Source: an uncultured Verrucomicrobiales bacterium
Lineage (GTDB): Bacteria > Verrucomicrobiota > Verrucomicrobiia > Verrucomicrobiales > Akkermansiaceae
Direction: 5' to 3'
Assembly: GCA_937928545.1 (NCBI GenBank)
Contig: CALGJQ010000001.1
Span: forward strand, 1-64,000
Length of the DNA: 64,000 nucleotides
How positions within the stretch are numbered: position 1 is the first letter of the stretch; each line of letters opens with the position of its first letter. A program made the position numbers and the translations under genes. Below, in pieces: positions 46,788-52,681 of the stretch. The notes beneath the pieces were generated by a model. That model searched no databases and was not told where the DNA came from. It saw only the letters and a list, made by a program, of their open reading frames with translations.

Positions 46788-47303
46788 CTAAGACTTCGGC
46801 GCAAACTGCCCCTTCAGCGCCTCCGGAATCTCCACCTTCGGGTGCACATACTCCGTCTCCTTCCGCCACCCCAAATGCTTCAGCGGATACAACTCTCCCA
46901 AGACAATCGCATTCCGCCTTTCCAGAATCACGCGACGCCCGCGCTTATCTAGACGCTTCTTCCCAAAGGCTATAATTGCGTCTCCTAACTGAGCATCCTG
47001 CATCGGGCCGAAAGCCAAATCAATCAGCCGACTATAAACCTCCAAATCCTCAGGATGCTTTTTGAGAAACTGCCGAAAGACATGAAAGGCCTCCGCCACC
47101 TCCCCTTGCATCGCCAAGGCATCTCCTCGACTTAACAAAGGCGGCGGCGTCCGAAACCTTTCTTGGGAAAAGAATGAAAGTGCATTGGCCATCCTTTGAC
47201 TCACCCAATGAGTAATCGGAATCGCAAATAGAATCCCTAGGATCGCCAGCGCTGCCACCGTGAAGATCGCGAAAGGAGCATGTTGGATATAGGCCATCAT
47301 CAA
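46788..47303 (-). CDS. Membrane-anchored TPR-like protein of unknown function
   Basis: A 171-residue protein with one N-terminal transmembrane segment (FAIFTVAALAILGILFAIPI). After it, a short helical-repeat part resembles a tetratricopeptide unit: RGDALAMQGEVAEAFHVFRQFLKKHPEDLEVYSRLI. The C-terminal tail contains Lys/Arg-rich segments. The start overlaps the stop of the large permease gene by 4 bases (47300-47303), so it is translationally coupled and probably works with that transporter. No enzymatic motif is visible. Confidence 0.6.
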   Translation of the reverse strand: MMMAYIQHAPFAIFTVAALAILGILFAIPITHWVSQRMANALSFFSQERFRTPPPLLSRGDALAMQGEVAEAFHVFRQFLKKHPEDLEVYSRLIDLAFGPMQDAQLGDAIIAFGKKRLDKRGRRVILERRNAIVLGELYPLKHLGWRKETEYVHPKVEIPEALKGQFAPKS

Positions 47304-50300
47304 AGACTACGCAAACTACGCGTTCCCACGAAGTTTGCAATCACCGCCATCACCACCACCAGCCCAATCATCCAAGCCAAATCACCAAAGCCCACCGTTC
47401 CCCCCAGCACCGGCACCACCGCAATCAGGGCCGAGATCAAACCAATTCCCAAACCCCAAAGCACCATCGACCTCACCTCTCTCTTCACAATCGCTCCCCG
47501 TCCTTCTTTCGAAATTCCCAACACTTTCAGGGTCTCAAATTCCCCCTTCCTCTCGACCAAATTTCGCGCCGTCACAATCCCCACTCCCACACTCCCCAGA
47601 ATAATTCCCAAGCCACCCAACACGTTAAAAATGGCAATGTAAGTATTCTCCACCTGATGAAAAGCCGCCATCCGATCCCTCGTCGCAGTGACCTTCCCTC
47701 CCAAATCCGCCGTCTCCTCTTGCAGGAGCTCCTTATCCTCCAACTCCGGCGCCAAGAACAACTGATACCCACTCATCGAGGGATATTTCGCCAGTAACTT
47801 CTCTTCATCCAAAATCAAACTCCCCTGAAAAATCGAATCCTTCACCACCCCCGCAATCGTCACCTTAAAATCACGACCCCACTCATCCTGATAGGTCAGC
47901 TCATCCCCCACCTTCTTCTTCAAGACCCACATCATCGTGGTCTCATCGACGTAAGCCTGCACTCCCTCCCCTTTCAAAATTGACCACTCATCACTCGTCT
48001 TAAATCTCCCCTCCAACAAGTCTGCATCCACCCCCAGCAAGCGCGGCTGATCCGAGGCCGTCAGATTAAAACAATCGACATCATCCCCCGCCCCGATCCG
48101 AAACGGCACCAGCGAGTCCAGCCCAAACCAAGCCACCTCACCCTTTGCATCCGCCGGACGATTCACCGGCGAAGTCGTCTCGACCCACCATGCGAATCCC
48201 CCCGCACCACTCTTCTTCTCTTCCCAATCACCTCCTCCATTTTTACGAAACGAAGCCACCGAAAGCACCAAAAATACCCCCGCCGCCAAAACTCCCACCA
48301 CCGTCAGACTCCGCGATGCCCGACGGCTCAAATTCACCTTCGCCATCCCCGCGCTCGTCAAACTTCCCAGCGCACCCACCTTCCCCAGTCGCATCCGGAA
48401 AAAGGCCAAACCCGAAATCAACACCCCAAAACCCACCAAGAAAAAGGCCCCATGCGCTCCCGCCGTAAAGCTCATTGCCACCCCTCCCATCACCATCAAT
48501 AAACCAAAAATCAAAAATCCCATCGCCCACTTACTCTTCTTCCCCACCTCTTCTTCTGCCCCTGAATTCAGTCGCACACTCGCACTCTGCTTCGCCTGCT
48601 TCCGCGTCGTCAACCACACCGCCAAGAGGGAAAGTTCCACCATCACCAACATCCCCGTCACTAAAGTTCCCGCCTTAAAGCTCAGCTGAAAATTCGTCCC
48701 GTTCCCCCAAATCGAACCAATCACCTCCAACACCAGCACGCAGAAACCCATCGCCAAAATCGCGCCCAAGATCACCCCCGCCAAGACCACAAAGAACGCC
48801 TCCCCCAGTCGCCAATTCGTCACCTTCTTCGCCGGCACTCCCACCGCTGAAAGCAAAGCCCCCTCCTCCGCCCGCTGCTCCACATTAAAGCGGAACAACA
48901 TCGCCACCAAAGCCACCGCCGCCAAAATTAGAAAGAAGCTCATCGCCAAAAAGAGCCCCGCAAAACTCACTGGCGATTTCGCCGCCTCCTTCGCCCCCTC
49001 CGCAAAATCCAAAACCTGCATCCCAGCCAAATCAGGATCTAGTAAATCCCGTACTTTCTTTTTCTCTTCTTCCACCTCACCACCCGACACCCTTACCCCC
49101 GTCACCTTCCCCCAACGATTCGCCCACATCTGCTCCCCCATTTCGTAGGAAACAAAAGCCTTCGGCGTCCCCTTAAATTCTTCCCAATACTCATCATCTT
49201 TATCGCGAATCCGCGTCATATCCAGCGGCAGCCCCGGCTCCCAGTCCCGCGCACTCTTCACATCCGCCACCCCCGGAAAATCCGGCATCCACCGCTTGTC
49301 AGCCGCTGGCCCTTCCATCGGAATGATCGCCTTCACCGTAAAGACCGTCCGCTCTTCCACCAACCTACTCCCATCTTCCACCACGAAATAATCCATCGTC
49401 AACTCATCCCCCACCTGCGCCCGCAAATCCTCTGCCAACCACTCATTTAAAATCACTTCTTCAAAGCCCAACTGCTCCGGAAAAAAGGCCGCTGACTCAC
49501 CGCTCACCGCCGTCACCATCGAGTACGGCGTCTCTCCGACTTCCGTCGCCAGCGTATTCACCAAATAGGTCAGCACCGCCTCCCCCTCAATCTTCTCCGC
49601 GATCGGACGCGTCATGAAAATCCGCTCAGACCGCACCTCCACCCCCTGCGGAACCTCCACCACCGATACCCCATAGTCTCCCAAGCTCATCTTCCCCTCG
49701 TCAAAATCATCCCCCTCTTTCAAAAGCAAAACATTCGCCTTCCCCTCCAGCTCCAACTTCTTCTGCAAGCTAACCCGCGACACAAAAACTGATGACGGCT
49801 GCACCTGCGTTTGCGCCAAACTAAAGCGCCCAAATTCCTCATCCGTCAAAACCTTCCCGATCGTAATCCGCATCGAGGCCACGGATTCACTCTCACCCGA
49901 AAGCGGCGCATCTCGAGACAACAAACCCGGCTTCTGCAACCGCACCACTGCCGAATCCCCCTCTTCCAAATCCAAAGCCCTTGCCAAAGGCCCACTAATC
50001 GCCGCCTCCCCATCCTTCAAAGTCACCTTGGTCTCTTCCGGCGCAAAATCCCAAAACTCATCCGTCACCCCCATCACCTGCACCTGCCCCTCCGCCCGCT
50101 CCTCCACATTCACCTGCCCTTTTAAATAGAGCATCGCCGCTCCCCCATTCCGCTCCTCTAAATCATCCTTAAAAAACCGCTCCCCACCCGAAAAAACCGT
50201 CGCCACCTTCCCCGTCCGCAGCTCCGCCGACTTCCGCAAATTCTCCGTCACCGAATCCCCCGCCATCAGTGCCCCCAAAAGAACCATCGCCCCAATCGCC

Positions 50301-50374
50301 GCCCCCGCCAAAACCCCAACATAAGCCGCCCGGTAATGCCGAATCCCCTTCCAAATAAACCCAAAGCTCTTCAC
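47300..50374 (-). CDS. Large FtsX/MacB-type ABC transporter permease
   Basis: A 1024-residue membrane protein. It begins MKSFGFIWKGIRHYRAAYVG with a transmembrane helix and a periplasmic MacB-PCD-like domain (about residues 40-450). Central transmembrane helices follow (LFLAMSFFLILAAVALVAMLF, VVLAGVILGAILAMGF), then a second periplasmic part and a C-terminal FtsX domain ending in three helices (GLGIILGSVGVGIVTARNLVERKGEF, MVLWGLGIGLISALIAVVPV). The duplicated layout resembles LolC/E- or YbbP-type permeases. No ABC ATPase gene is adjacent, so the partner must be elsewhere. It is coupled to the TPR-like gene downstream. Confidence 0.8.
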   Translation of the reverse strand: MKSFGFIWKGIRHYRAAYVGVLAGAAIGAMVLLGALMAGDSVTENLRKSAELRTGKVATVFSGGERFFKDDLEERNGGAAMLYLKGQVNVEERAEGQVQVMGVTDEFWDFAPEETKVTLKDGEAAISGPLARALDLEEGDSAVVRLQKPGLLSRDAPLSGESESVASMRITIGKVLTDEEFGRFSLAQTQVQPSSVFVSRVSLQKKLELEGKANVLLLKEGDDFDEGKMSLGDYGVSVVEVPQGVEVRSERIFMTRPIAEKIEGEAVLTYLVNTLATEVGETPYSMVTAVSGESAAFFPEQLGFEEVILNEWLAEDLRAQVGDELTMDYFVVEDGSRLVEERTVFTVKAIIPMEGPAADKRWMPDFPGVADVKSARDWEPGLPLDMTRIRDKDDEYWEEFKGTPKAFVSYEMGEQMWANRWGKVTGVRVSGGEVEEEKKKVRDLLDPDLAGMQVLDFAEGAKEAAKSPVSFAGLFLAMSFFLILAAVALVAMLFRFNVEQRAEEGALLSAVGVPAKKVTNWRLGEAFFVVLAGVILGAILAMGFCVLVLEVIGSIWGNGTNFQLSFKAGTLVTGMLVMVELSLLAVWLTTRKQAKQSASVRLNSGAEEEVGKKSKWAMGFLIFGLLMVMGGVAMSFTAGAHGAFFLVGFGVLISGLAFFRMRLGKVGALGSLTSAGMAKVNLSRRASRSLTVVGVLAAGVFLVLSVASFRKNGGGDWEEKKSGAGGFAWWVETTSPVNRPADAKGEVAWFGLDSLVPFRIGAGDDVDCFNLTASDQPRLLGVDADLLEGRFKTSDEWSILKGEGVQAYVDETTMMWVLKKKVGDELTYQDEWGRDFKVTIAGVVKDSIFQGSLILDEEKLLAKYPSMSGYQLFLAPELEDKELLQEETADLGGKVTATRDRMAAFHQVENTYIAIFNVLGGLGIILGSVGVGIVTARNLVERKGEFETLKVLGISKEGRGAIVKREVRSMVLWGLGIGLISALIAVVPVLGGTVGFGDLAWMIGLVVVMAVIANFVGTRSLRSL

Positions 50375-50485: not shown

Positions 50486-52681
50486 CTACTTCCGAGCTGC
50501 CGCAGCCTGCTCCAGCGCCTCCAACGCATCATCCGGGCCAAAGACCTCAGGCATCAAGATCACCGGTGCATCAGGATCAGCAGGCGCAATCACATTTACT
50601 GGCAGGTTCGCTCGTCCATATCGTTTCAGGTCATCATTAATCGATTGCAGACGGTCAGTATTGTCAGCCTTAATCAAGATCACGTTGAGCTCTTCCAACT
50701 TATCGAGAACTTTCTGATTTGAGAACACACGGCCCTCATTCACTTTGCAAGTCGCTCACCAATCCGCTGTGTAGTCGACCCAAACGATTCTCTTCTTCGG
50801 TCGCGAGAGTTCCATAATCCCCGGATACCATTCGTTCCAAGCCAAGCCCTTCTCTGGTGGCTTAGAAGTCGAATAGGCCCAAGTCAAACCACCAAGAGTC
50901 AGCACTGCGGCCAAACCATAGCCCGTCACAAAGCGTTTCCCTTTTGCCACCATCGGAGTTCCCCAGCGGCCATAAATATAGGCCCCTAGTCCAATCAACA
51001 GGAGAGCGAAGAGGAAAATATTAAAGTGAGAATCACCCACCAACTTCATGTAGCCCTTCATGAAAAACACCGCCGTTGCGAAGACGAAGAAGGACATGAT
51101 CTGCTTAAAGCTCTCCATCCACGCCCCCGGACGAGGAAGCTTTTTAATGAGTGCCGGAAAGAGCGAGAGAATGATATAGGGCGAAGCAATCCCCAATCCA
51201 AAGACCGTGAAAATCACAAAAGCCTTCGCTGGCGGCTGGGCCAAGGCAAAGGCCATCGCCGCGCCCAAGAACGGGCCAGAACAAGGCGTCGCCACCAAAG
51301 TTGTCAAGACACCCGAGAAGAAAGAACCCGAGTAACCCTTCTTCGCCTGCAGCTCACCACCCACACTCGTCATACTCGTTCCCACCTCAAACACGCCATA
51401 AAGATTCAGCCCCATCAGGAAGAAGAAGATGATCATCGTCGCTAAGAAATACGGGTTCGCCAGCTGCTGACCCCAATCCAACTTCAGCGAAATAATAATC
51501 GCGGCCAAGACCCACATCGCGATCAAAAGCCCTAAGCCAAAGACCATCCCGTGCACCTTAATCTTACTCTCATCTTCACCGGCCTGGGACACAAAGCCCA
51601 TCACCTTCAAGCCCAAGACCGGAAAAACACAGGGCATGAGATTCAAAATCAAACCCCCTAAGAAAACCAAACCCAGCGATGAGAAAAAGGTCACCTTCTT
51701 CTCCTTCGCCCCACCCAAGAGAACCGCCTCGGGACGCGCATCGACATCATAGACTTCCAGTCCCGCTTTCCGATCAGCCTCGGTCGCCGGAACAAAGGCC
51801 GACAAATGACCACCACCCGAACTCACATCCGCGTCCGGCGTCAAAGGGACATTGATCTCAATACTCCCCTGCCCAAAATCACTCTCAAAAGCGAGCATCC
51901 CCGAAAGCGAATCCTTCACCTCGCCCGCGCTGATAACGAGTTCGTCATTCCCTTCATTTCGCGCCAGCGAGAGAATCACCTTCCCCTCTTTGATTTCCAC
52001 TCCCTGCTCGGCTTGCGAATCAACCTGCTCATCGGTCGAGAAGAAATAAACTGGCTCTTTGATCTCCATTCCCTCGGGATGAATAAACTCAACCCTGATC
52101 TTATTCTCTTCCTCAGTCGCGATCGCCCCCCAAGCCGAACTGTCCTGCGGCAATTTCTCACTCACCTCTGCAAAAAAGCCCTCCTCTTCCTCCACAAACT
52201 TCGTCTCATCCCCCGCACGAAGCACGAAAGAGAAATCGTGATTTCCCGGCATGCAGACCACATCGCACTCCAACCAGCTCAGGCTCCCCTTGATCGTAAA
52301 CTCTTTCCCCTGCTCGACATCATCACTCGCTTCCACCTGAGCCACAAAGGTCACTTTCCCTTCGTACCCATAACTGATGACTCCCTCACTCGACTTCATG
52401 ACATGAGGAGTCGGGAATTGTAATTCACCCGCCGTAAACCCGGCTGGCAGTTCCCATTCGACAGAAGGAGGCAAACCACTCGATCCAGCATTCTCAAAAT
52501 AGGCGTGATACTTCGGCTTCAAATCCAAAGTAAACGCCACGCGGAAATAATCTCCCGCCTCAACTGCTGTCACCTCCGGCGTGACCTTGACCGTAGTCTC
52601 ACCACCCTCACCAAATCTATTTTGAGCCTGCGTGAGAGGCGCGAGAAGGAAGGCGAGGAAGAGAATAAGAGAACGTTGCAT
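50486..52681 (-). CDS. dsbD: DsbD-family protein-disulfide reductase with in-frame UGA (candidate selenoprotein)
   Basis: The frame from ATG 52681 is interrupted by a single TGA at 50756-50758 and then continues in the same frame to 50486, giving 731 residues if the UGA is decoded. The protein has a signal peptide (MQRSLILFLAFLLAPLTQAQ), a periplasmic N-terminal domain with C-D-V-V-C, and an eight-helix DsbD/CcdA membrane domain with both conserved cysteines (C351 in NLMPCVFPVLG, C467 in ATPCSGPF). A thioredoxin domain then reads DW-UGA-ATCKVNEG, where DsbD proteins have DWCxxC. The UGA replaces exactly the first active-site Cys (position 642). The downstream 90 codons (VFSNQKVLDKLEELNVILIKAD, LPVNVIAP) are typical thioredoxin sequence without decay. 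DsbD passes electrons from cytoplasmic thioredoxin to periplasmic thiol proteins. A nonsense mutation is the alternative. Confidence 0.75.
50715..50742 (-). promoter_or_regulatory. SECIS-like hairpin downstream of the in-frame UGA
   Basis: On the minus strand, starting 13 bases after the UGA, TGA-A-TGAG (50742-50735) pairs with CTCA-AA-TCA (50723-50715): 7 base pairs with a small internal loop, extendable by two G-U pairs. The loop is GGCCGTGTGTT, containing the G and GU expected in bacterial SECIS apical loops. Distance and size are similar to the element in E. coli fdhF. Such short hairpins can occur by chance. Confidence 0.4.

Follow-up and report, generated by a model that had tools for sequence, protein, structure and literature searches.

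DsbD proteins pass electrons from cytoplasmic thioredoxin to a pair of cysteines in the membrane, from these to an outer thioredoxin domain and on to an N-terminal domain, which in turn reduces substrates in the cell envelope. Selenocysteine (Sec, U) is documented in several related redox proteins, among them TsoB (NF045694), a selenoprotein resembling a rhodanese/DsbD fusion that is listed with the motif UxxxxU and two Sec residues (PMC13188914), and a thiol:disulfide interchange protein labelled PF13098 (WP_011366075.1), which has a UxxC motif (PMC1794560, cited in PMC13188914). The motif UxxC also occurs in thioredoxins and TlpA-like proteins that are selenoproteins, families for which the table of PMC13188914 names no membrane transporter domain. 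That table (Table 1, published in 2026), which covers 119 prokaryotic selenoprotein families and subfamilies, contains no DsbD with UxxC; nor does one occur in the accessible parts of PMC1794560, PMC1088965, PMC9312934 and PMC4807772, in PMC12013277, or in the openly available portion of the literature on selenoproteins with DsbD, Verrucomicrobia and Akkermansiaceae.

Here we describe what is apparently an undescribed selenoprotein variant of this known electron transporter, referred to below as Sec-DsbD. The window, the whole stretch of DNA analysed, comprises 64,000 nucleotides (positions 1 to 64,000, forward strand, of contig CALGJQ010000001.1, assembly GCA_937928545.1) of an uncultured member of the Verrucomicrobiales family Akkermansiaceae, a marine-type relative of Akkermansia that appears to read a stop codon as Sec at the active site of a membrane electron carrier. 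At 50486..52681 on the minus strand lies a complete dsbD gene of 731 codons plus stop with one in-frame UGA: 641 amino acids are followed by a single TGA (in the motif DYTADW-TGA-ATCK), 89 further codons and the stop, the frame being otherwise unbroken. The UGA, codon 642 at 50756..50758, falls on the first residue of the motif U-A-T-C, and the first-pass annotation, which had placed it at the first cysteine of a thioredoxin CxxC in a frame continuing without further stops, was exact in strand, frame and coordinates. From translation, comparison with relatives and genome content, we put the probability that this is a real selenoprotein gene, encoding a DsbD/ScsB-type transporter whose UGA is decoded as Sec, at roughly 0.95.

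Read through the UGA, the protein contains three domains, each above its Pfam cut-off: DsbD_N (residues 40-151, 52229..52564, minus strand), with conserved Cys139 and Cys143; the membrane domain DsbD_TM (residues 336-542, 51056..51676, minus strand), with conserved Cys351 and Cys467; and a thioredoxin-like domain (Thioredoxin_7, residues 614-695, 50597..50842, minus strand), which holds U642 and Cys645 and is also recognizable from an AlphaFold model and a match to the C-terminal domain of DsbD (c-DsbD). All three were found in 15 of 15 aligned members, all of them Sec forms (Pfam, E up to 0.01), in which the positions of the redox pairs C139/C143, C351/C467 and U642/C645 are invariant (U shown as C), one pair to each domain, as expected of the DsbD family in the broad sense that includes ScsB. 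The gene directly following dsbD (47300-50374, minus strand) encodes an FtsX-like permease (PF02687), and in another genome of the same genus (L057) a similar protein is also next after dsbD.

Sec-DsbD shares with E. coli DsbD the same three Pfam domains and an outer domain that is alike by both profile and fold, but has Sec where the E. coli protein has Cys at the first CxxC position. A profile of 15 Sec relatives matches solved E. coli c-DsbD structures (4ip1, 2fwe, 1uc7) at E about 2e-8, with the UGA position aligned to the first active-site Cys of ADWCVAC, whereas a phmmer search from the one protein gave no match among solved structures. The AlphaFold2 model, with a mean pLDDT of 74.7 and a pTM of 0.42 and for that reason trusted for single domains only, resembles c-DsbD 2fwe (E 2e-4; rmsd 2.4; TM-score 0.75, relative to the target). 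Its best fold match is the N-terminal domain of Proteus mirabilis ScsB (6c29, E 6e-12; profile E 8e-8), a structure that covers, and confines the comparison to, that domain; most of its other fold matches are unrelated beta-sandwich proteins. Against the NCBIfam DsbD model NF001419 the protein scores 102.3 bits, so far below the cut-off of 330 that we regard Sec-DsbD as a distant DsbD branch. Its best NCBIfam match is TsoB, with which it shares the DsbD-like region, at 161.4 bits against a cut-off of 805; the rhodanese part of TsoB was not found by Pfam in Sec-DsbD or the aligned members. WP_011366075.1, which shares UxxC in a thioredoxin-like domain, is set apart by its domain label only (PF13098 scores 14.3 against a cut-off of 27 on the thioredoxin domain of Sec-DsbD) and could be a DsbD relative, and the thioredoxin and TlpA-like selenoproteins have Sec at the same first position of the redox motif.

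Under the standard code the frame splits into ORFs of 641 and 85 amino acids, as it would if the UGA simply ended a gene broken by nonsense mutation, assembly error or decay. The same UGA codon, however, occurs in 51 distinct genomes, 31 from Akkermansiaceae and 20 from a second family of the order, which rules out a sequencing error. Within the window's family, 135 of 145 genomes have a match; 31 of these 135 carry exactly one TGA in it, at the CxxC position in every case (31/31). In the window's genus the codon is TGA in 19 of the 19 genomes whose match reaches the motif (the window's own included; G138, with an N-terminal fragment only, and G134, without a match, are left out). All 18 other family members that were fetched have TGC or TGT here, those beyond the 18 being judged only by the absence of TGA from the match. 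A search of the order (220 of 239 genomes matching at E 1e-60) added TGA forms from the second family, at least 20, and in each of these 20 the TGA falls on this codon.

In the phylum, 136 of 387 genomes match at E 1e-100, and the TGA matches are the window, G014 (of the same family) and G484; this last, the only one from another class, was set aside, having Cys in the motif and a TGA that is its ordinary terminal stop. Among the best 80 named genome records, out of at least 595 relatives, TGA stands at the motif in six, which their titles assign to Verrucomicrobiales or its families: Akkermansiaceae UBA5688, ANT-87 and g2_MAG_00019, Verrucomicrobiaceae HS5BWF_bin.44, and Verrucomicrobiales CPC300 and PW8.metabat2.79_sub. 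All six contigs are also present in the other genome sets, two of them within the window's genus. No viral contig carried the C-terminal piece of dsbD, and a search of these contigs with the alignment returned one distant relative.

The codons after the UGA are under purifying selection and evidently translated. Of 16 pairs compared over this part, four had saturated dS, and 10 of the other 12 had dN/dS below 0.18, the two higher values being 0.38 (L162/L163) and 0.46 (L028/L033, with dS of only 0.03); pairwise dN/dS upstream of the UGA ranged from 0.008 to 0.196. Eight of the 51 genomes yielded no SelB match, which would suit a broken gene; these eight are 54-92% complete. With the codon conserved, the window's frame free of any other break, selection continuing past the UGA and a conserved hairpin behind it, we consider disruption of the gene extremely improbable. 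The relatives thus show conservation, not decay, and a catalytic UGA with Cys homologues is the pattern characteristic of bacterial selenoproteins.

The machinery for Sec insertion, whose absence would have weighed heavily against the proposal, is present in the window's genome, with all four components above their cut-offs: tRNA-Sec (59.2 bits against 47; ARAGORN: SeC, anticodon tca), SelB (319.4 against 242.25), SelA (479.8 against 267.9) and SelD (380.8 against 125), the last with an in-frame TGA of its own in CGGUASK. Among genomes with Sec-DsbD, SelB was found in 29 of 31 from the family, versus 35 of the family's 114 other genomes (an association confounded with kinship), and in 14 of 20 from the second family. 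A phage-integrase gene (PF00589 over cut-off; L009:12818-14762, C29) ends about 67 nt from the intact-looking tRNA-Sec gene, possibly marking an island inserted at selC. Two short selA-like matches (C5:11411-11764; L023, L024) lie close to the intact selA (C5:13277-14623), and are perhaps a partial copy of it.

Alternatively, a changed code or a special tRNA might place a different residue (Cys or Trp) at the UGA; relatives carry Cys here, so that the protein would work if a tRNA inserted Cys. The genome has, however, a canonical tRNA-Sec (anticodon TCA) with selA, selB and selD, TGA still ends 7 of the 32 stop-to-stop frames of at least 300 codons in the window (frames rather than verified genes), and the UGA is accompanied by a hairpin that most Cys genes are without. 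We regard such a reading as very improbable, if marginally less so than a broken gene. The first-pass annotation had proposed a candidate selenoprotein, and wherever the sequences allowed that proposal to be challenged, in the machinery, in the codon of relatives and in the integrity of the gene, the outcome favoured it.

Following the UGA, at 50720..50738 (minus strand), is a SECIS-like hairpin with a 7-bp stem and the loop CGUGU, beginning 17 nt past the codon. The first-pass annotation had rightly noted a hairpin with a GU-containing loop, at a distance of 13 bases that needs correction to 17. In an alignment of 34 sequences (29 distinct; 31 from the family, three from the second family), the 7-bp stem and 5-nt loop, mostly CGUGU, recur at this distance, with standard pairs in 95.1% of cells versus 87.3% after shuffling (0 of 500 shuffles as high) and 14 cells in which both sides differ yet still pair, versus 4.0 (0 of 500 as high). 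The double changes are U-A to C-G at the stem base and C-G to G-C at the loop; when the partner strand is slid by 1-3 columns, the paired share drops to 31.5-68.5%. Of five covariation measures, two are no higher than in shuffles: the two pairs with a double change were equalled or surpassed in 385 of 500 shuffles and the eight further pair types in 217 of 500.

Constraint on the hairpin is also visible at synonymous sites, where the mean synonymous-diversity ratio of its codons is 0.32 versus 0.89 over the gene (212 columns), and where one codon is GAG in 31 of 31 sequences and another TTC in 30 of 30. No random set out of 20000 had a ratio as low; of 207 contiguous windows two did, its own among them. 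Folding of the stretch, compared with synonymous recoding, gave -6.82 kcal/mol (z -1.41) for 50 Sec genes versus -4.69 kcal/mol (z -0.19) for 99 Cys genes. By a rule set after the sequences had been seen (stem of at least 5 bp, loop of 3-6 nt containing GU), 46 of 50 Sec genes versus 19 of 99 Cys genes have the hairpin, the exceptions among Sec genes being L034, L043, L169 and L170. Synonymous recoding of the same peptides gives rates of 0.51 (Sec) and 0.18 (Cys), so the difference lies partly in the peptide. A GGUC loop occurs in some hairpins of the second family, in part together with a bulged base (L159, L172, L174). Kinship inflates all of these counts; the evidence is stronger where it comes from the double changes and from the synonymous test.

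Prediction from the window alone gave no support: no Rfam SECIS family matched at the hairpin (permissive E-values gave one chance match, E 7.8), and the single-sequence fold is unexceptional (z -0.94 to 0.02 over four lengths), so that the hairpin gains its significance only from comparison between relatives. A covariance model of the hairpin (window sequence included) had one clear match in its own genome, itself (E 6e-19; next E 0.57), and thus does not find the genome's other selenoprotein genes. Taken across relatives, the conserved and covarying hairpin probably serves as the element expected soon after the UGA of a bacterial selenoprotein gene.

In a quick tree of 123 proteins, 49 of them with Sec, every Sec row belongs to a single clade of 64 rows, unstarred at SH-aLRT 81, in which 15 Cys rows (14 distinct) are also found. 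The Sec/Cys trait requires eight changes, at least five of them forced by starred branches, and starred branches of the quick tree are less trustworthy; on this tree, Sec and Cys have been exchanged at least five times, whichever the direction. SelB was found in four of the 12 Cys genomes of the Sec clade (G154, G160, G186, G189) and not found in the other eight. Inside this Verrucomicrobiales clade lies a DsbD of the Cys type whose record bears the title Pirellulaceae (Planctomycetota; L091, CALFUT010000034.1), possibly through horizontal transfer or a mis-binned contig.

These exchanges bear on whether the UGA could be a partly selenium-controlled end, with a 641-residue form and the full Sec form both made and the short form functional in its own right. 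Both the N-terminal and the membrane domain do end upstream of the UGA, and UGA recoding in one studied case is reported to be incomplete, at 30-40% in vivo (PMC4513850). Relatives that switched to Cys nevertheless keep the full domain and lose the option of ending there, and nothing points to a function of the short form; we therefore think the production of two functional forms unlikely, though less so than the other alternatives above.

For the full-length protein we propose that UGA642 would be decoded as Sec under the direction of the downstream hairpin and the genome's SelA, SelB, SelD and tRNA-Sec. By analogy with the DsbD relay, cytoplasmic thioredoxin would reduce Cys351/Cys467 in the membrane, these would reduce Sec642-Cys645 of the outer thioredoxin domain, and this pair would in turn reduce Cys139/Cys143 of the N-terminal domain and, through them, envelope substrates. 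With Sec replacing the exposed nucleophilic Cys, transfer should gain in speed or in resistance to over-oxidation. Without decoding, translation would stop at 641 residues with the CxxC incomplete, so that activity is expected to require selenium.

Candidate partners are encoded in the same genome, which has 16 matches to the AhpC-TSA family, six with one in-frame TGA. In all six the TGA lies at the catalytic position, two being peroxiredoxin-like (TPGU) and four TlpA-like (WUGPC, WURGC, WUGGC, WUPPC). The genes are located at C59:1144-1494 (L215), C14:1689-2048 (L223), C27:5508-5864 (L217), C14:31633-31965 (L220), C18:14888-15229 (L221) and C44:83676-83996 (L222), and four have, by eye, an apparent N-terminal signal. 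Their presence supports active Sec decoding in this genome, and suggests, no more, that they are clients of Sec-DsbD. By eye, TGA-bearing AhpC-TSA matches (TGA anywhere in the match) make up 19 of 60 in 10 Sec-DsbD genomes versus 7 of 72 in 10 SelB-bearing genomes whose DsbD match is without TGA; 18 of the 19 fall in the window's genus (18/43), the other four Sec-DsbD genomes contributing 1 of 17. A tight coupling of Sec-DsbD with Sec redoxins was accordingly rejected over these 20 genomes, the association lying mostly in the one genus.

A wider reading would make Sec-DsbD an old Verrucomicrobiales selenoprotein that acts, dependent on selenium, as the membrane gate of an envelope redox network rich in this element, with the six redoxins as clients and the Cys members as repeated Sec-to-Cys escapes, partly with loss of SelB. 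Because the link to Sec redoxins is confined to one genus, we rank this lower and offer it as a hypothesis, and a rather doubtful one.

Proteins like Sec-DsbD may be hidden by ordinary annotation, because under the standard code the gene appears as a DsbD lacking the thioredoxin domain plus a short orphan ORF. If the selenoprotein reading is correct, Sec would act in the step by which reducing power crosses the inner membrane of bacteria, and the reduction of disulfides and peroxides in the envelope would be tied to selenium supply; a protein in which Sec and Cys have replaced each other repeatedly would provide a natural series on what Sec gains in a membrane thiol relay.
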